From Phycisphaerales bacterium (GTDB taxonomy: Bacteria > Planctomycetota > Phycisphaerae > Tepidisphaerales > Tepidisphaeraceae), in assembly GCA_020853095.1 (NCBI GenBank), contig JADYZN010000047.1:1-40886 (forward strand): 40,886 bases of DNA, in the 5' to 3' direction. Every line of letters begins with the position of its first letter. The stretch's first letter is position 1. Position numbers and translations under genes: made by a program. Shown here in pieces: positions 30,773 to 38,997 of this stretch. The notes beneath the pieces are model-generated. The model saw only the letters and a program-made list of their open reading frames with translations. It searched no databases and was not told where the DNA came from.

Positions 30773-31294
30773 TTACGCTTCCTGTGCTTCGGTCGCGGCC
30801 GCGGCCGATTTGCGGGCGGCGTCGATAGCGGCCTTGCTTTCCGCATCGGGGGCGACCCAGATCTTGATGTCGGCCGCCAAATCCTCGGTAAAACGCACCT
30901 GCACCGTGTAGGTGTCGATGCGATCCAGCTTACCCGGCAGGTTGACATCGTCCGGATTGATGTTGAATCCCTGCGTTTGCAAGCCCCGCGCGATGTCGGT
31001 GGCGCTGACCGAACCGAACAGGTGGCCCTGGTCGTTGGCTCGACGTTCCAACGTCACCTCGACACCCTCCAGTTGCTTGATCATCGCGGCCTGCTGTTCA
31101 CGACGCTCGCGCTCCTGCCGTTCGATCTCCTGGCGGCGGGCTTCGATCTTCTTGACGTTGTTCGGTGTCGGCTCCACCGCCAACTCCTTGGGCAACAAAT
31201 AGTTGCGGGCATATCCGGGCGAAACTTCCACCACGTCTCCCACCCGACCGACGTTCTTGATCGACTCTTTCAACAACAATTTCACGCGTGCCAT
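30773..31294 (-). CDS. rplI: 50S ribosomal protein L9
   Basis: 173 residues. The N-terminal RNA-binding domain (VKLLLKESIKNVGRVGDVVEVSPGYARNYLLP) is followed by the long connecting helix and the C-terminal domain (GHLFGSVSATDIA). An Ala/Glu-rich extension of about 20 residues ends the protein. GAGGT lies close to the ATG. It follows ssb by 63 bases with no rpsR between. Confidence 0.96.
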   Translation of the reverse strand: MARVKLLLKESIKNVGRVGDVVEVSPGYARNYLLPKELAVEPTPNNVKKIEARRQEIERQERERREQQAAMIKQLEGVEVTLERRANDQGHLFGSVSATDIARGLQTQGFNINPDDVNLPGKLDRIDTYTVQVRFTEDLAADIKIWVAPDAESKAAIDAARKSAAAATEAQEA

Positions 31295-31357: not shown

Positions 31358-31870
31358 TTAGAACGGGATGTCATCATCCTGGAACTGCTGGTCTTCCGGA
31401 AACGGCGGATCCTGCGGTGGCTGCGGTGTCGGCCGGCCATTTGCCGGTCGGCCCTGCGGGCGCTGTGGCCGGGAATCATCCTGGGGAGAATCATCCGGTG
31501 ACCTGCCGGCGCCGCCACCTCCGCCACCTCCGGCGTCACGTCCGCCCAACAACTGGAAATTCTCGATGACGATGGCGTGCTTGCTGCGTTTGCCGCCACC
31601 TTGCTTGTCATCCCATGTGTCGTACTTGAGCCGGCCTTCCACCAGCAAAGGCCTGCCTTTCTGGCAATATTGATTGATCACCTCGGCCTGTTTGCCGAAG
31701 GCCGAACAATCAATAAAGCAGACTTCATCGCGGTCCTCACCGGATTTTGTACGAAAACGATGATTGACCGCCAGGCCGAAATCCACCACGGCCATCTGAC
31801 TGGGCAGATACCGCAACACGGGATCGCGCGTCAGATTGCCCATCATGATGACTCGATTGTAACTGGCCAT
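31358..31870 (-). CDS. ssb: Single-stranded DNA-binding protein
   Basis: 170 residues. The OB fold occupies about 1-110 (MASYNRVIMMGNLTRDP, then VEGRLKYDTWDD). A Gly/Pro/Gln-rich disordered linker with a run of seven glycines follows, and the C-terminal acidic tip DDDIPF recruits replication and repair partners. GGAGG lies six bases upstream but is sequestered in a short hairpin (31877-31889). Confidence 0.97.
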   Translation of the reverse strand: MASYNRVIMMGNLTRDPVLRYLPSQMAVVDFGLAVNHRFRTKSGEDRDEVCFIDCSAFGKQAEVINQYCQKGRPLLVEGRLKYDTWDDKQGGGKRSKHAIVIENFQLLGGRDAGGGGGGGAGRSPDDSPQDDSRPQRPQGRPANGRPTPQPPQDPPFPEDQQFQDDDIPF

Positions 31871-31905: not shown

Positions 31906-32388
31906 CTATTCCTTGGCGGCGGCTTCAGCGCCTTCCTCGCGGCGGGCGCGAGGCGGTCGTCCTTCGCGGTCGCGATCCCGATCGCCACGATCACCACGAT
32001 CGCGATCACGCGGGGCGCGTTCCTCCCACGAGGGCCGTTCCTCGCGCGGCTGGATCGGCTGCGGCTCCACCGCCGCCATCTCCTCGGCGTTGAGGTGATC
32101 GGCCTTGAGCACCATCACGCGAAGAATTTCCTCGCCGAGGTTCACCTCACGCTCGATCGCGGAGATCGCTTTTCCGGGCGCCTTGAAGAACGCGATGATG
32201 TAGGTTCCCCTCTTCTGGCCGCGAATCTCATAGGCGAGCTTTCGCTCATCCCATTTCTTGATCACCAGGATCTGACCCTCGTGCCGCTCGATGATCGAGC
32301 GCGCCAGGTTGATCGCCGCATCCAGATCGGCCGCGGCCGATGCGCCAAACAAAAACATCGCCTCATACTGACTCAAAGACTCTGCCAT
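31906..32388 (-). CDS. rpsF: 30S ribosomal protein S6 with charged tail
   Basis: 160 residues. Residues 1-100 are the S6 fold (QYEAMFLFGA, VIKKWDERKLAYEIRGQKRGTY, EREVNLGEEILRVMVLKAD). The last 50 residues are an Arg/Asp/Glu-rich tail with RDRDRGDRGDRDRDRE, longer than in most S6 proteins and probably disordered. GGGAG lies nine bases before the chosen ATG. An in-frame ATG five codons earlier is possible. Confidence 0.95.
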   Translation of the reverse strand: MAESLSQYEAMFLFGASAAADLDAAINLARSIIERHEGQILVIKKWDERKLAYEIRGQKRGTYIIAFFKAPGKAISAIEREVNLGEEILRVMVLKADHLNAEEMAAVEPQPIQPREERPSWEERAPRDRDRGDRGDRDRDREGRPPRARREEGAEAAAKE

Positions 32389-32445
32389 AAAAAATGCTCC
32401 CAAGCATGGGTTCTGGTCGGTCGAGCCGACCGCCGGGTAATGAAA

Positions 32446-33063
32446 CTATTCCTCTTTCTCATCCGCGTCGGCGTTGAACCGATTCATCGCCGCCGCGATT
32501 CCATTTTTCAACCACAACTCGATCGCCGCCGCCGATCGTTCGACGGCCGGATCGACCCGCGTTCGCTGGTCCTCCGTGAACCGTCCCAGCACGTAATCGC
32601 GGCCGGGAACGCGGTTCGGCGCCGGGTCGATGCCGATCCGCAGTCGCGGGTACTGGTTGGTTCCCAGCGCCCGCTCGATGTCACGCAGGCCGTTGTGCCC
32701 GCCGCTGCTGCCGCCGGCCCGCAGGCGGATTTTCCCGCACGGCAGCGCCAAATCGTCCAGCACGACCATCAGGTCCGCCGGCGACAACTGATAAAACGCC
32801 GCCGCCGCCTGCACCGACTGGCCGCTGTTGTTCATGTAGGTGGTGGGCTTCAGCAAAAGCAGTTTATCGCTTTGGCCGCCCGATTCCACCGTTCCATCCA
32901 TCGCCAGGCCGCTGAATTTGGAGCGGGCGACGCGATTGAAATCATCGCCACCGCCGATCCATCGCAGCCGCCGCGCCAGATGATCCAGCACCTCCCAGCC
33001 GATGTTGTGGCGGGTGCCGGCGTACTGCGAACCGGGATTGCCAAGCCCGACAACCAGTTTCAT
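32446..33063 (-). CDS. pth: Peptidyl-tRNA hydrolase
   Basis: 205 residues, normal. It releases tRNA from stalled peptidyl-tRNA. MKLVVGLGNPGSQYAGTRHN carries catalytic His19. TTYMNNSGQSV, LDDLALPCGKIRLR and GGHNGLRDI match the family. The ATG at 33063 fits the canonical N-terminus. An in-frame TTG six codons earlier, next to the rplY stop, is less likely. Confidence 0.96.
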   Translation of the reverse strand: MKLVVGLGNPGSQYAGTRHNIGWEVLDHLARRLRWIGGGDDFNRVARSKFSGLAMDGTVESGGQSDKLLLLKPTTYMNNSGQSVQAAAAFYQLSPADLMVVLDDLALPCGKIRLRAGGSSGGHNGLRDIERALGTNQYPRLRIGIDPAPNRVPGRDYVLGRFTEDQRTRVDPAVERSAAAIELWLKNGIAAAMNRFNADADEKEE

Positions 33064-33085
33064 GCGGCGCAACCACTCCAACAGC

Positions 33086-33739
33086 CTACTTCTTCGGGGC
33101 TTCCTCGGCGGGGGCCTCCTCGCCCTCGGCCTTGCGGCCGATGACTTCCGGTTCGGCTTCGCCTTCGGCCGCGGGGGCGGCGGCTTCTTCCACCACCTCG
33201 CGAACCGTCGCCACGATCAAATCCTCATCCTGCAACGCCCGCACGCCCGGCGGCAACTGCAAATCCCGCACGTGCAGCACGTCGTCCAGCGCCATCTCCG
33301 ACACGTTGTGCCGGATGACTTCCGGAATCTCCGTCACCAGGCACTCGACTTCCAGTTCCGAAAGAACCTGCTGCAACACGCCGCCATCCGCCTCGCCCTT
33401 GGGCGTGCCCTTGAGTTCCAGCGTCACGGTCACTTCAACCTTCTCGTCCAGGCTGACGCGGGCGAAATCGACGTGGATCACCTCCATGCCCAGGTGGTCG
33501 TACTGCACTTCCTTGACCAGCACTTTCTCGCTGCGGCCGTCGAAGTTCAGGTCGAACACGTGCGCCCCGTGCGCCAGGTGGTTGCTGACCTCTTTTTTCG
33601 GCAACGTGATGGGGATGACGGCCTCCTTGTGGCCGTAAATCACGCCGGGAACCTGTCCCCCGTCGCGCAGGCGCTTGTTCGCCCGCGAACCCAGTTCGGA
33701 TCGTTGCTTGACACTGATTTGTGCGCTTTGCACTGCCAT
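33086..33739 (-). CDS. rplY: 50S ribosomal protein L25, general-stress (CTC) type
   Basis: 217 residues. The N-terminal L25 domain binds 5S rRNA, and the second CTC/TL5-type domain covers about 95-185. The C-terminal 30 residues are Glu/Ala/Pro-rich. GGAG lies upstream of the ATG. Order prs-rplY-pth is a common bacterial arrangement. Confidence 0.94.
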   Translation of the reverse strand: MAVQSAQISVKQRSELGSRANKRLRDGGQVPGVIYGHKEAVIPITLPKKEVSNHLAHGAHVFDLNFDGRSEKVLVKEVQYDHLGMEVIHVDFARVSLDEKVEVTVTLELKGTPKGEADGGVLQQVLSELEVECLVTEIPEVIRHNVSEMALDDVLHVRDLQLPPGVRALQDEDLIVATVREVVEEAAAPAAEGEAEPEVIGRKAEGEEAPAEEAPKK

Positions 33740-33794: not shown

Positions 33795-34787
33795 TCATCC
33801 GCCGGCCGCGCGGCCCGGATCGCCGTTGAACAACGCGCTGACCGACTCGTTGTGATGAATCCGGTGGATCGCCTCGCCCAGCAGGTCCGCCACCGACAAA
33901 ACTTCCACCCGATCCTTGATCGGGTCAATCCGGCTGCCGATCGGGATCGTGTCCGTCACCGCCATCTTGCTGAACGGACAGGCCGCCAGCCGTTCCATCG
34001 CCGGCGGCGCGAACACCGCGTGCGTCGTGGCGATGTAAATCTGGTTCACGCCGTGCCCGCGTAAAATCTTGCACGCCTCGGTGATCGTGCCGGCGGTGGT
34101 GATCATGTCGTCCACCATCAGCACGTTTTTGCCTTCCACGTCCCCGATGACGTGCTTGGCCACCGTCTCCGAACCGCTCTTGCGGCGCTTGTCGATGATG
34201 CAGATCTCGCCGCCCAGCATGTTGGCGTACACCTGCGCCCGTTTGACGTTGCCCACGTCCGGCGACACGAAGACGCGGTTGCTGAGCTTCAGGCCCTTGA
34301 TCCACCTGGACAACACCGGCGCCGCGTGCAGATGGTCCACCGGGATGTCGAAAAACCCCTGCACCTGCGCTGCGTGCAGATCGACCGATACCATCCGGTC
34401 CGCCCCGGCACGTTCCAGCAGGTTGGCCACCAGCTTGGCGGTGATGGGCGTGCGCCCTTCATCCTTTCGATCCTGCCGGGCATAGCCGAAATACGGGATC
34501 ACCGCCGTCACGCGCTGGGCGCTGGCCCGCTTCAGGCAATCGATCCAGATCATCAGTTCCATCAGGTGCGCGTTCACCGGATGGCTGGTGGGCTGGATGA
34601 CAAAACAATCCCGCCCGCGCACGTCCTCATCCACCTTGACGATCAATTCCCCGTCGGGAAACAACTCGGTCTGCCCGCGACCGAGGTCGATGTCCAGGTA
34701 CTGGCAGATCTTCTTCGCCAGTTGGGGGTTGGCCCGGCCGGTGAAGACCTTCAGTTTGTCCGCGTCCGCATGAGACATAATGTTCAT
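33795..34787 (-). CDS. prs: Ribose-phosphate pyrophosphokinase
   Basis: 330 residues. It makes PRPP from ribose 5-phosphate and ATP for nucleotide, His and Trp synthesis. ATP-binding and catalytic regions are visible: FPDGELIVKV, YFGYARQDRK, the SVDLHAAQVQGFF signature, and PRPP loop VDDMITTAGTI. Two Met starts are possible (residue 1 or 4), and no strong Shine-Dalgarno separates them. It lies 19 bases after glmU. Confidence 0.95.
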   Translation of the reverse strand: MNIMSHADADKLKVFTGRANPQLAKKICQYLDIDLGRGQTELFPDGELIVKVDEDVRGRDCFVIQPTSHPVNAHLMELMIWIDCLKRASAQRVTAVIPYFGYARQDRKDEGRTPITAKLVANLLERAGADRMVSVDLHAAQVQGFFDIPVDHLHAAPVLSRWIKGLKLSNRVFVSPDVGNVKRAQVYANMLGGEICIIDKRRKSGSETVAKHVIGDVEGKNVLMVDDMITTAGTITEACKILRGHGVNQIYIATTHAVFAPPAMERLAACPFSKMAVTDTIPIGSRIDPIKDRVEVLSVADLLGEAIHRIHHNESVSALFNGDPGRAAGG

Positions 34788-34806: not shown

Positions 34807-35778
34807 TCATCCCAACGCCGCTTCCCGAACCGTGTTGCCCGCCAGGTTCGTCCCTTCCGGAACGATCCCCTGTCGCGGGATCATCGTCATCGGCCCGATC
34901 ACGCAGTCGCCTCCGATGCTCGCGCTTCGTCCGATGAAACAAAACGGCTGCAAAACCGTGTCCGGCCCGATCGTCACGTCCGCCTCGACGTAGGTGTTGA
35001 TCGGGCTGACAATCGTCACGCCGCCCTCACGGATGCGCTTCTGGATGCGATCCTGCATGATCGCATCCACTTCCGCCAGTTGCTGCCGGGTGTTGATCGA
35101 CAGCACATCCTCCGCCGTCACCGCCTGCACCGCGATGACCTTTCGGCCGGCGCGACGCAAAATCGAAAACACATCCGTCAGGTAATACTCGTTTTTCTTG
35201 TTCTGCGGCGTCAACTGGCCCAGCGCGCTCAATAAATCATCCGATCGAAGGCAGTAATAGCTGGGGAAAATCTCGTGGATTTCACGCTGCTGGGGCGTGC
35301 AATCCAGCTCCTCGACGATTTCATGAAAATTCCCCTCCCCATCCCGCACGATCCGCCCATAGCCGGTCGGGTTGTCCACCACCGCGGTCGCCATGCTGGC
35401 GGCGGCCCGCTCTTCATGGTGGGCATTGAGCAGCGTCCGCAACACTTCGCCGCGGATCAAAGGCCCATCGCCCGCCAGGATAAAGACCTCTCCATGCTTC
35501 TCCCGCAGGTGCTTTTCACACATCCGGGCGGCGTGGCCGGTCCCCAACTGTTCAGTCTGCTCGACCCATTGGATCCGCTTGTCCCCGTCAAACTGGCCGA
35601 TCACCTCATCTTTTCCATGCCCCACAACCGCCAGGATGCGATCAACGCCGGCGTCAAAACAGGCGTCAAAAACGTATCCCAGCATCGGCTTGCCGCAGAT
35701 CTCGTGGAGAACCTTGGGCCGCTTGCTTTTCATCCGCGTGCTTTTGCCCGCGGCGAGGATGATGGCGGTGACGGACAT
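34807..35778 (-). CDS. glmU: GlmU-like N-acetylglucosamine-1-phosphate uridyltransferase, short
   Basis: 323 residues against about 455 for bifunctional GlmU. The N-terminal pyrophosphorylase domain is complete: AIILAAGKSTRMKSKRPKVLH, EQTEQLGTGHA and AGDGPLI. About 90 residues of left-handed beta-helix follow (VSPINTYVEADVTIGPDTVL and further turns), and then the protein ends, so the acetyltransferase active site is absent. It should make UDP-GlcNAc only if GlcNAc-1-phosphate is supplied by another enzyme. The start at MSVTAIIL is chosen because an in-frame upstream start would lie in the tRNA-Gln gene. Confidence 0.9.
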   Translation of the reverse strand: MSVTAIILAAGKSTRMKSKRPKVLHEICGKPMLGYVFDACFDAGVDRILAVVGHGKDEVIGQFDGDKRIQWVEQTEQLGTGHAARMCEKHLREKHGEVFILAGDGPLIRGEVLRTLLNAHHEERAAASMATAVVDNPTGYGRIVRDGEGNFHEIVEELDCTPQQREIHEIFPSYYCLRSDDLLSALGQLTPQNKKNEYYLTDVFSILRRAGRKVIAVQAVTAEDVLSINTRQQLAEVDAIMQDRIQKRIREGGVTIVSPINTYVEADVTIGPDTVLQPFCFIGRSASIGGDCVIGPMTMIPRQGIVPEGTNLAGNTVREAALG

Positions 35779-35792
35779 AAATCCTGAAGTCT

Positions 35793-35810
35793 GTTCCCGC
35801 ATTCGGGAAC
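35793..35810 (-). promoter_or_regulatory. Hairpin at the tRNA-Gln 3' end
   Basis: GTTCCCG (35793-35799) and CGGGAAC (35804-35810) form a perfect 7-bp stem with a 4-base loop. It directly abuts the mature tRNA and includes the complement of its discriminator base. With no T run, it may guide tRNA 3' processing or attenuate entry into glmU. Confidence 0.55.
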
Positions 35811-35880
35811 TACCCGGCCTGGATTCGAACCAGGACAAAGAGAACCAAAATCTCTTGTGCTACCGTTACACTACCGGGTA
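35810..35880 (-). tRNA. tRNA-Gln, anticodon UUG
   Basis: A 71-base cloverleaf: acceptor TACCCGG/CCGGGTA with discriminator G, anticodon stem AGAGA/TCTCT with loop TTTTGGT (anticodon TTG), and T arm CCTGG-TTCGAAT-CCAGG. CCA is not encoded. It lies 31 bases upstream of glmU on the same strand and downstream of a strong promoter, so it is probably the first gene of the glmU-to-rplI unit. Confidence 0.95.
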
Positions 35881-36021
35881 ATTGGGTAGTGAACCGTCAT
35901 GAGGCCCGCCGAACCCGCGTCCGACGGTGGGGAAAGATGATCGTAACTTCTTGTCCCGCCTACCTTTCCGGCTCTCGCCGGACCTCTCGACGTCGTCCCC
36001 GCTTTTCGCGGGAAAGCATCC
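35881..36021 (-). other. Structured leader upstream of tRNA-Gln
   Basis: This 141-base stretch between the promoter and the tRNA holds no convincing gene. On the minus strand it contains CCCGC-GAAAA-GCGGG, CCGGC-GAGA-GCCGG (a GNRA-capped stem), and a longer domain closed by ACCGTC/GACGGT. It could be a precursor leader, a small RNA or a cis-regulatory element. I could not match it to a known class. Confidence 0.45.
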
Positions 36022-36049
36022 ATTTTAGCGCTGTCGCTGTGACTGTCAA
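36022..36049 (-). promoter_or_regulatory. Strong sigma-70 promoter of the tRNA-Gln/glmU unit
   Basis: On the minus strand a perfect TTGACA (complement of 36044-36049) is followed after 16 bases by TAAAAT (complement of 36022-36027). The predicted start is near 36015. Confidence 0.75.
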
Positions 36050-36111: not shown

Positions 36112-36178
36112 TGGAGGGCGGCGGTCCTCCGTCGCCGATTTTTCCAATAATCGCGGCGTCGCGGAGCGACGCCCTCCA
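36112..36178. repeat. Long imperfect palindrome, family 2
   Basis: TGGAGGGCG-GCGG (from 36112) pairs with GACGCCCTCCA (to 36178). The pairing continues inward through mismatched CTCCG/CGGAG and CGATT/AATCG segments. It follows the stop of the DUF1570 gene by 16 bases. The sequence resembles dispersed GGAGGGCGTCGCTCC-type palindromes, and it differs from the family-1 repeats at 20092 and 39179. Confidence 0.75.
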
Positions 36179-36194
36179 TGTTTATTTCCAATCC

Positions 36195-37406
36195 CTACCG
36201 GGCCGGTTCCAGCACGGTTTCATGTTCGATTTGACCGTTGGATTCGTAAAAAAGCGTTCGCAGCCGCACGGCATCCGACCGCCGGCAAACCAAGTCCGCG
36301 ATGGGAGCGCCGGCCCGGCCGTCCAGGTGCAGCTCCTGGCGTGAAAACCGCCTTCCCCGGTCGTCGGCGAAATAGCTCAGGGCATCCTCATCGCTGCTCC
36401 ATTGCAGGTCTCCCTTGGCATAATTCATGCGATATCGCCCCTCGGCGACGGACTGCCGAAATGTGTCGATGTCGGTGAATGTCAGGCCGCGCGCGTGCAG
36501 CTCGACCAGAAGATCGGCCAGGACATTTTGTCGCTCGATCCAGCGGGCTTCGGGAGTGGGTTGAAGCGTGCGGGCGTATTCCACCAGCCGGTCTTGAAAT
36601 CCGCTGTAATTGCGCGAAAAAGCCTGCGCGAACGCCTCGGTTCCATCCGTGCCGGAATGTAAAATCCGCAACATTTCGATCAGTCGCGATCGGTACATCG
36701 GCTTGCCATCAGGTCCGGCCGCGTAAATCAGCATCTGGGTCATCGCCCACGCCTGATTGTACTGGGAGGTGGCCTGGTCACGGTTGGCCAGATTTTGAGT
36801 CCACTGGCGGGGGGTGAGGCCCATGATCTGCGCGAAGTCGATCAACCGGCCGGCGGCGATGTCCGCCTGGAGCTGACGAATTCGGCGGGGTGGCACCTGG
36901 CCGATCAGAAACCCCCGGCCGGTCCACAATCCTTCTTCAAAGACCTGTGCCAACCCTTCGTTGAGCCACGCGGGGAGATTGGGGCCAAGGGTCTGGTCGG
37001 CGAATTGATGGAAGGCTTCGTGTTGCAACGTCCGGCGGAGGGCGTCACGCCCTTGTTCGTTCAAATAAGCGGCCAGAAGATGCCGCGACGGAATGAAAAC
37101 CCCGCCGCTGTTTTCGTGGGTGATGCCGGTGAAAGCCTGATAATCCTCGCGATTCTGAAAAAGATAGACTTCGAGCTTCTGGCGGGGCTGGTTTTGAAGA
37201 AACTCCGCCAGTCGGCGGTCGTATTCCTCGTACATCGCATCGAGCCGGCGGGATAGGTCCGTCGTGAGCGGTTCATCCAGGGCGCTGTGGATGCGATAAT
37301 GACGACTGTCGTAAGATTGCAGTGCCGGCTGGGCCAACACATGCGAATGTAAAAAAAGAGTCAGCAGCGTCAAAATCAGTGCCGGCCGGAAGTTACATCG
37401 CGACAT
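36195..37406 (-). CDS. Secreted DUF1570/peptidase MA-like metalloprotease
   Basis: 403 residues. The signal peptide spans about 1-25 (LILTLLTLFLHSHVLA). The zincin motif HEAFH (129-133) is followed by AWLNEGLAQ with Glu150 as likely third ligand, a gluzincin arrangement. The C-terminal 130 residues have no recognised domain. The family is abundant in planctomycetes. The substrate is unknown. The gene is divergent from lysS with about 80 bases between the starts. Confidence 0.85.
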   Translation of the reverse strand: MSRCNFRPALILTLLTLFLHSHVLAQPALQSYDSRHYRIHSALDEPLTTDLSRRLDAMYEEYDRRLAEFLQNQPRQKLEVYLFQNREDYQAFTGITHENSGGVFIPSRHLLAAYLNEQGRDALRRTLQHEAFHQFADQTLGPNLPAWLNEGLAQVFEEGLWTGRGFLIGQVPPRRIRQLQADIAAGRLIDFAQIMGLTPRQWTQNLANRDQATSQYNQAWAMTQMLIYAAGPDGKPMYRSRLIEMLRILHSGTDGTEAFAQAFSRNYSGFQDRLVEYARTLQPTPEARWIERQNVLADLLVELHARGLTFTDIDTFRQSVAEGRYRMNYAKGDLQWSSDEDALSYFADDRGRRFSRQELHLDGRAGAPIADLVCRRSDAVRLRTLFYESNGQIEHETVLEPAR

Positions 37407-37485
37407 TGTTTTTCCGTGGTGGGTGCATCCGTATCATTTTGTGTCACCGGCAACTATCATCGTCAAACTTTTGGATCGCGACAAC

Positions 37486-38997
37486 ATGGATCAAACCTCA
37501 AATATTTACGAACAGGAACGCCGCCAGAAACTCAACAAGCTGCGCGAGGCGGGAATCGATCCCTTTGGGCAATCCGAACCCGGCGTGCGGCCGCTGTCCG
37601 AGCTGAAGGCTTTATACCAGCCGGAGATGGGCCATGACGGGGGGCCGACGGTCAAAGGAGCCGGGCGAATCATCCTCAAACGCGACATGGGAAAGTTGAG
37701 CTTTTTGACGCTGCGGGATGACAGCGGCGATTTGCAGGTGGCGCTGGACAAAAAGCGGCTCGATGAGCGCGGGTGGACCATTCGCGGGTTGCTGGACCTT
37801 GGCGATCTGATCGTGGTGGAAGGGCCGCTGGGGACAACCAACAAGGGAGAGACGACGATCTGGGCGGGCCGGCTGGAGATGGCGTCCAAGGCGCTGTTGC
37901 CCCCGCCGGCCAAGTGGGAGGGATTGTCGGATGTCGAATTGCGCTATCGCCAGCGATACGTCGATCTGTGGGCCAATCCCGATGTGATGCGGCTGGCCAA
38001 ACTGCGCATCCGAATCATCGATGAAATCCGCCGGTACATGAGCGATCGCGGCTATCTCGAAGTCGAGACGCCGATGATGCAGATCATCCATGGCGGGGCG
38101 GCCGCCCGGCCTTTCGTGACGCACCACAACGCGCTGGACATGAACCTGTACCTGCGGATCGCGCCGGAATTGTTTTTGAAACGGCTGCTGGTCGGCGGAT
38201 TTTCCAAGGTTTTTGAAATCAATCGCAATTTCCGCAACGAAGGGATCAGCCCGCGCCACAACCCGGAATTTACGATGTTGGAGGCGTACGAGGCGTTTGG
38301 GTCATGGGAGACGATGGCGGACCTGGTCGAGGGCATGGTCTGCCGGTTGGCCGAGACGTTGTTTGGCGGATTGAAGATCGAGCACAAAAACGCGGATGGC
38401 GCGGTGGCGCGGACGATCAACCTGCAACGCCCCTGGCGTCGGGTGCGCATGATGGACCTGGTGGAGGAGCGCACGGGGTGGAAATTCAATAAGGAGCCGA
38501 TTTCCGCCGACCAGTTGGCCGCCTTGCGTCAGGCCAATCCCGGCAAGGAGATCAAAGTCCACGGCTCCCCCGCCGAGCAATTGGTGGAAATCTATGAGAA
38601 ACTGATCGAGCCGACGCTGATCGATCCCTGCTTTGTGACGCACGTTCCCAGCGTGATTATCCCACTGGCGCGCAAGAACCGCGAAGATGATTATTTCGCG
38701 GACGTATACGAACTGGCGATCAACGGCCAGGAAATCTCCCCCGGCTACTCGGAATTGAACGATCCGGACGTCCAGGCCGCGAATTTCGCCCACCAGGTCG
38801 GCGACAAGGAGGAACAGCAGAAAACCGATGAGGATTTCCTCAACGCCCTCCGCCACGGCATGCCCCCGGCGGGCGGCATGGGATTGGGAATCGACCGCTT
38901 GATTATGATGCTGACCGGAGCGGAGAGTATTCGCGACGTGATTTTGTTCCCGTTGATGAGGCCGGAACGTGATGCGTTATGCGTGAAGCATAAGTGA
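37486..38997 (+). CDS. lysS: Lysyl-tRNA synthetase, class II
   Basis: 503 residues. The N-terminal OB domain (about 55-165) binds the anticodon. Class II motifs are clear: motif 2 FEINRNFRNEGISPRHNPEF and motif 3 GGMGLGIDRLIMMLTG. The normal family end (VILFPLMRPE) is followed by the unusual tail RDALCVKHK, encoded by the left inverted repeat of the element at 38969-39245. The start at MDQTSN is the last plausible Met before the conserved YEQERRQKL region. Confidence 0.96.
   Translation: MDQTSNIYEQERRQKLNKLREAGIDPFGQSEPGVRPLSELKALYQPEMGHDGGPTVKGAGRIILKRDMGKLSFLTLRDDSGDLQVALDKKRLDERGWTIRGLLDLGDLIVVEGPLGTTNKGETTIWAGRLEMASKALLPPPAKWEGLSDVELRYRQRYVDLWANPDVMRLAKLRIRIIDEIRRYMSDRGYLEVETPMMQIIHGGAAARPFVTHHNALDMNLYLRIAPELFLKRLLVGGFSKVFEINRNFRNEGISPRHNPEFTMLEAYEAFGSWETMADLVEGMVCRLAETLFGGLKIEHKNADGAVARTINLQRPWRRVRMMDLVEERTGWKFNKEPISADQLAALRQANPGKEIKVHGSPAEQLVEIYEKLIEPTLIDPCFVTHVPSVIIPLARKNREDDYFADVYELAINGQEISPGYSELNDPDVQAANFAHQVGDKEEQQKTDEDFLNALRHGMPPAGGMGLGIDRLIMMLTGAESIRDVILFPLMRPERDALCVKHK

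Follow-up and report, generated by a model that had tools for sequence, protein, structure and literature searches.

Possible function of a leader before tRNA-Gln

What is the function of the roughly 140 nucleotides that separate a promoter from a tRNA-Gln gene in a member of the Tepidisphaeraceae (Phycisphaerae)? The locus lies in the window, by which we mean the whole stretch of 40,886 nucleotides analysed here (contig JADYZN010000047.1). The first-pass annotation had described a near-consensus promoter (TTGACA, TAAAAT), a leader of about 140 bases with three stems, one of them GNRA-capped, and then tRNA-Gln and glmU, and it had recognised no known riboswitch consensus. The promoter is borne out, with 11 of 12 positions matching the consensus; two promoter-like sites occur in 1.8 kb, while 0.7 are expected from shuffles. 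The 139-nt leader folds with a minimum free energy of -59.7 kcal/mol (z -2.52; 4 of 200 shuffles are equally good), and the three stems are present: the 5' hairpin with the GAAAA loop, P2 with the GAGA (GNRA) cap and a 3' hairpin. The gene order is confirmed, with a glmU-like gene on the minus strand behind the tRNA (Table 1). The Rfam search of the leader and its surroundings is in line with the riboswitch statement, as the tRNA is the sole match above the cut-offs; the remaining matches at E up to 10 are weak, chance-like and far under the families' own cut-offs. A search of the minus strand for intrinsic terminators gave none within the leader.

Table 1. Features of the leader and of the operon behind it, in window coordinates
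Feature	Position	Strand	Details
Promoter	36022..36049	-	-35 TTGACA 36049-36044; 16-nt spacer; -10 TAAAAT 36027-36022
P0, 5' hairpin	35996..36014	-	CCCGC/GCGGG type; GAAAA loop
Conserved core	35952..35997	-	P1 35992-35989 with 35960-35957; match to covariance model R1, 52.7 bits
Core internal loop	GAGAGG 35988-35983 / AAGGUA 35966-35961	-	between P1 and P2
P2	35982-35977 with 35972-35967	-	GAGA cap; part of conserved core
Anti-core strand (predicted)	35895..35908	-	pairs with 35992-35979; ends 13 nt before tRNA
tRNA-Gln	35809..35881	-	anticodon TTG; tRNA match (Rfam)
glmU-like nucleotidyltransferase	34807..35778	-	hexapeptide repeat; missing at this place in 5/21 operons
prs	33795..34787	-	ribose-phosphate pyrophosphokinase (PRPP synthase); downstream in 21/21
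rplY	33086..33739	-	two-domain L25 (Ribosomal_L25p + TL5_C); downstream in 21/21
pth	32446..33081	-	peptidyl-tRNA hydrolase
rpsF	31906..32403	-	ribosomal protein S6
ssb	31358..31870	-	
rplI	30773..31294	-	ribosomal protein L9

Upstream of the leader, on the same strand, lies a gene for a DUF1570/Peptidase_MA-like protein (36195-37406). A palindromic REP/BIME-like repeat (GGAGGGCGTCGCTCCGCGACGCC and its partner) occupies 36112-36178, between this gene and the promoter, and has 47 matches in its own genome, itself included. A putative lysyl-tRNA synthetase-like gene (37423-38997) is divergent from the DUF1570/Peptidase_MA-like gene.

Conserved and covarying core

The tRNA-Gln loci of relatives were gathered by a DNA search of 61 genomes. 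Before the tRNA the leaders of the family share the pattern CGUC-GAGAGG-P2 hairpin-NNGGUA-GACG. It corresponds to a core of 12 pairs, in which the helices P1 and P2 flank a 6x6 purine-rich internal loop, GAGAGG/NNGGUA, most bases of which are near-invariant across the family leaders. The free minimum-energy structure of the window leader is different and gives P1 a probability of 0; the conserved P1 was detected solely via the comparison with relatives.

Covariation was scored in alignment A3 of 18 sequences, from which L005, L007 and L020 are left out for their long P2 inserts. In it 93.9% of the cells are paired; shuffling lowers this to 79.3%, and sliding the partners to 46.0% or less. Eleven of the 12 core pairs have changes on both sides, with a covariation score of 0.589 versus 0.302, and two genomes have GCU/AGC in place of the P1 triplet GUC/GAC. 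The pair variants include U-G/G-U, which argues for an RNA structure and not for a DNA palindrome or operator. The first-pass annotation had proposed such an analysis of relatives; the outcome that it named as contrary, no conserved covariation, is refuted. The core is a conserved, covarying structured RNA, matching no Rfam family.

Occurrence of the core

The core is present at the same place in 21 of the 26 Tepidisphaeraceae genomes examined. Model R1 gives one strong match each in 20 of them, with E 0.0032 or better, and in the 21st (G011), which has a long P2 insert, the core was found by pattern. For the remaining five (G002, G004, G014, G023, G025) the core stretch is not assembled: the G002 contig ends 6 nt before the tRNA, the G004 contig begins within glmU, and the other three give no rplY match. 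The core is single copy per genome, with extra matches in the family only at E 0.02 and above, and none of the other tRNA or rRNA genes in these genomes is preceded by a copy.

Outside the family, 272 other genomes of the class gave 7 matches at E 0.012-0.057, and 391 further genomes of the phylum, partly overlapping the class set, gave 2 at E 0.006-0.008; both are at chance level. Among 80 rplY loci no match outside the family is better than E 1.4. In the family, class and phylum searches the core was never found away from the tRNA-Gln operon. A literature search, which largely left subscription papers uncovered, found no description of the core RNA. As the core is conserved and has no Rfam match, we suggest that it is probably an undescribed control element.

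In another family of the class, L018 and L019 have a different, well-folding leader upstream of tRNA-Gln. By eye these two leaders do not share the core, and they perhaps represent an independent leader RNA.

Variation among leaders

Of the 20 leaders scored automatically, 14 have a promoter of the form TTGAC[AT]-16-TANNAT at 10-31 nt upstream of the core; the 21st, L117, was left out of this set. The distance from the end of the -10 element to the core is 10-12 nt in four leaders and 27-31 nt in ten. A hairpin at the P0 position is seen by eye in most leaders with the longer spacing, while the shorter spacing leaves no room for it. Downstream, the distance from the core to the tRNA ranges from 61 to 261 nt, and both the length and the 3' half of the leaders vary widely.

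Ten leaders, which we call type A, carry an additional helix, P3, with a GCGGU loop that forms a pseudoknot with CCGC[GA] further downstream. Covariation of type A was scored on the seven leaders without long inserts, where 91.9% of the cells are paired. In these seven, 5 of 9 pairs of P3 are changed on both sides; in the pseudoknot this is the case for 1 of 7 pairs, and 4 are invariant. The length of the downstream complement is reached by 3-196 of 1000 shuffles in nine genomes and by 756 of 1000 in L013. Type B leaders, the window included, are missing the P3/pseudoknot domain.

Predicted alternative helix in the window's genus

The free minimum of the window leader contains a long helix of 35992-35979 with 35908-35895. 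Its anti-core strand pairs with the 5' strand of P1, the loop and the 5' strand of P2, so that the core is excluded. Forcing the core gives -53.3 instead of -59.7 kcal/mol, a cost of 6.4 that is calculated without credit for non-canonical pairs in the loop. In the window's genus the anti-core duplex reaches z -2.9 and -3.7, in L024 -2.5, and significance of the helix is confined to L001, L002 and L024. Over the 11 type B leaders the mean z is -0.74 (Fisher P 0.008), and no signal is seen in the 9 type A leaders (Fisher P 0.88). Duplexes with own and with swapped downstream parts hardly differ in energy (-16.2 versus -15.5 kcal/mol). The best anti-core site ends at most 14 nt from the tRNA in 7 of the 11 type B leaders, with 2.9 expected (P 0.009 in a post hoc test). 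A C to U difference separates the window from its sister L002 in the 5' strand common to both helices; the anti-core strand compensates it by G to A, but P2 is left with a mere G-U wobble. We suggest that the leader likely would switch between core and anti-core helix in the window's genus, and that other leaders may do so.

A direct downstream complement of GAGAGG was also considered as a general switch and rejected, since it is not above shuffles in most of the 20 leaders. In the window's genus the 5' flank of the tRNA (35881-35894) repeats part of the tRNA start (CACTACCC-AAT-TACCCGG), and CACTACC could thus pair with GGTAGTG inside the tRNA. CAC stands directly before the tRNA in 11 of 26 tRNA-Gln loci.

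Operon behind the leader

The order core, tRNA-Gln, prs, rplY is constant in all 21 operons (20 stretches and the window), an apparent transcription unit. Between the tRNA and prs, glmU is missing in five of the 21 (G003, G008, G009, G011, G015), and thus it is not the target of the leader. The first-pass annotation had proposed a possible cis-regulator or small RNA linking the expression of tRNA and metabolic genes. What stands of this is the conserved RNA structure, with its 11 of 12 covarying pairs; the link to glmU falls with the five operons, and the reading as a tRNA-Gln/glmU regulator is not supported. Other families have the same operon without the core (L120, L121 and L123-L126). The leader is therefore a family-level addition to an older operon.

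L25 as the candidate ligand

A purine-rich, near-invariant loop enclosed by two helices is typical of sites bound by proteins. We infer that the internal loop of the core is a putative binding site, with a protein as a likelier ligand than a small metabolite. Loop E of 5S rRNA is the binding site of bL25. The core strands C-GAGAG and GGUA-G are letter-identical to the classical bacterial 5S loop E, which is present in seven further genomes of the class (L057, L066, L070, L072, L074, L083, L086), and their order in the core is swapped. The columns follow the same order in both, C-G, G.A, A.U, G.G and A.G. Unlike loop E, the core is 6x6 and not 7x7, its strands are swapped and the second half of the motif is missing.

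The core also differs from the 5S rRNA of the family itself. There loop E reads [G/A]AUGAUAC / GGAAAGUA in 15 of 15 family genomes shown, with A.A in place of the G.G of the leader and of the classical form, plus a flipped closing pair (5S genes of L062-L085). The core is a half-match to classical loop E, and at two positions it departs from the corresponding site in the 5S rRNA of the family. Several other families of the class retain the classical 5S loop E.

The GUA facing GA in the core is also shared with sarcin-ricin and bulged-G loops. Their usual arrangement is asymmetric, whereas the core is a symmetric 6x6 in which G.G and A.G are expected. Mimicry of rRNA beyond 5S was considered and rejected, as two 23S and one 16S rRNA of the family gave no GAGAG/GGUA loop enclosed by a convincing outer stem. 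According to the available part of one source, sarcin-ricin/loop E-like modules are widespread and their presence alone is uninformative on the ligand (PMC8450098).

The part of PMC10931766 at hand describes the binding of bL25 to 5S rRNA. With rplY in the operon, this binding and the core loop, which resembles half of classical loop E with the strands swapped, make L25 the leading candidate. Within the reading as a cis-acting leader we regard L25 as a possible ligand, with the odds clearly against it. Enterobacteria offer a parallel: in the accessible text of PMC10931766 and PMC7247131, the rplY/L25 leader has a narrow phylogenetic range and forms an irregular hairpin close to the 5' end of an L25-encoding transcript. 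Unlike our leader, the E. coli L25 operator, as given in the same part of PMC10931766, lies directly before rplY, acts on translation and has a weak GAGA SD. In the family the tRNA and one or two genes intervene before rplY. The E. coli rplY leader has no GAGAG/GGUA loop.

Possible roles of the leader

Our preferred reading is a lineage-specific, cis-acting leader RNA of the ribosomal-protein type with which the tRNA-Gln-(glmU)-prs-rplY-pth-rpsF-ssb-rplI transcript begins and whose core binds a ligand. We give this reading a probability of about one half.

Processing of the tRNA 5' end requires a cut by RNase P. This cut would leave a folded RNA with its own promoter, present once in each genome as a housekeeping RNA would be and able, in the form of the window, to close its 5' to its 3' end in a long helix. 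Such a stable leader might act in trans as a stand-alone small RNA, for instance by sequestering L25 or a different RNA-binding protein. We consider this rather unlikely, although it is the best of the alternatives, because the 3' half and the length vary so widely (61-261 nt from core to tRNA) and the RNA is never found apart from this operon. Identity with SRP RNA is rejected, since SRP RNA is located elsewhere in the genome; 6S RNA was rejected as well, with no match in the genome by a model that also misses most of 14 control genomes.

The 5' structure might merely protect the leader-tRNA transcript, which is long and untranslated, or modify RNA polymerase, as in antitermination of the put/nut type. 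Two observations favour such a role: no terminator to switch is recognisable, and where the -10 element lies 10-12 nt upstream, as it does in four leaders, the core starts only a few nucleotides from the predicted transcript start. The near-invariance of most loop bases exceeds the need of mere protection, and this role is also made quite improbable by the fact that no further tRNA or rRNA gene of these genomes has the core in front of it.

A metabolite riboswitch, for PRPP or a nucleotide for example, controlling prs and the genes behind it would suit the compact pseudoknotted fold of type A and the constant presence of prs, but it is very unlikely given the single locus per genome, the tRNA between leader and first gene, the lack of an Rfam riboswitch match for the window and for two type A leaders, and the absence of the pseudoknot domain from the window and the other type B leaders.

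Proposed mechanism and its meaning

For the cis-acting leader we suggest the following. The internal loop of the core would be the binding site, with L25 (bL25) from the same operon as the best candidate, and binding of the ligand would stabilise the core. In the window's genus, the tRNA-proximal strand would, without the ligand, invade the core and form the long closing helix. Since RNase P separates the leader from the mRNA, control most likely takes place before that cut, or on the processing itself; Rho-type termination, transcript stability or tRNA maturation might be affected. The 3' end of the tRNA must be freed too, which makes the blocking of downstream ribosome binding unlikely. Regulation before or of processing thus fits better than blocking of a distant ribosome site.

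In its most specific form, which we hold to be unlikely, the mechanism would have L25 sense its own excess via a strand-swapped mimic of 5S loop E before the tRNA gene. One switch would then tune a tRNA, PRPP synthesis and several ribosomal proteins before the RNase P cut, and the leader would preserve the loop E form that other families of the class have, in contrast to the 5S of the family itself, which has changed.

To our knowledge, few regulatory RNAs have been studied in Planctomycetota. The core adds to this phylum a well-supported structured RNA without an Rfam match. The leader is thereby a defined object in which the joint control of tRNA and ribosomal-protein genes in one transcript, despite the processing of the tRNA, may be studied.
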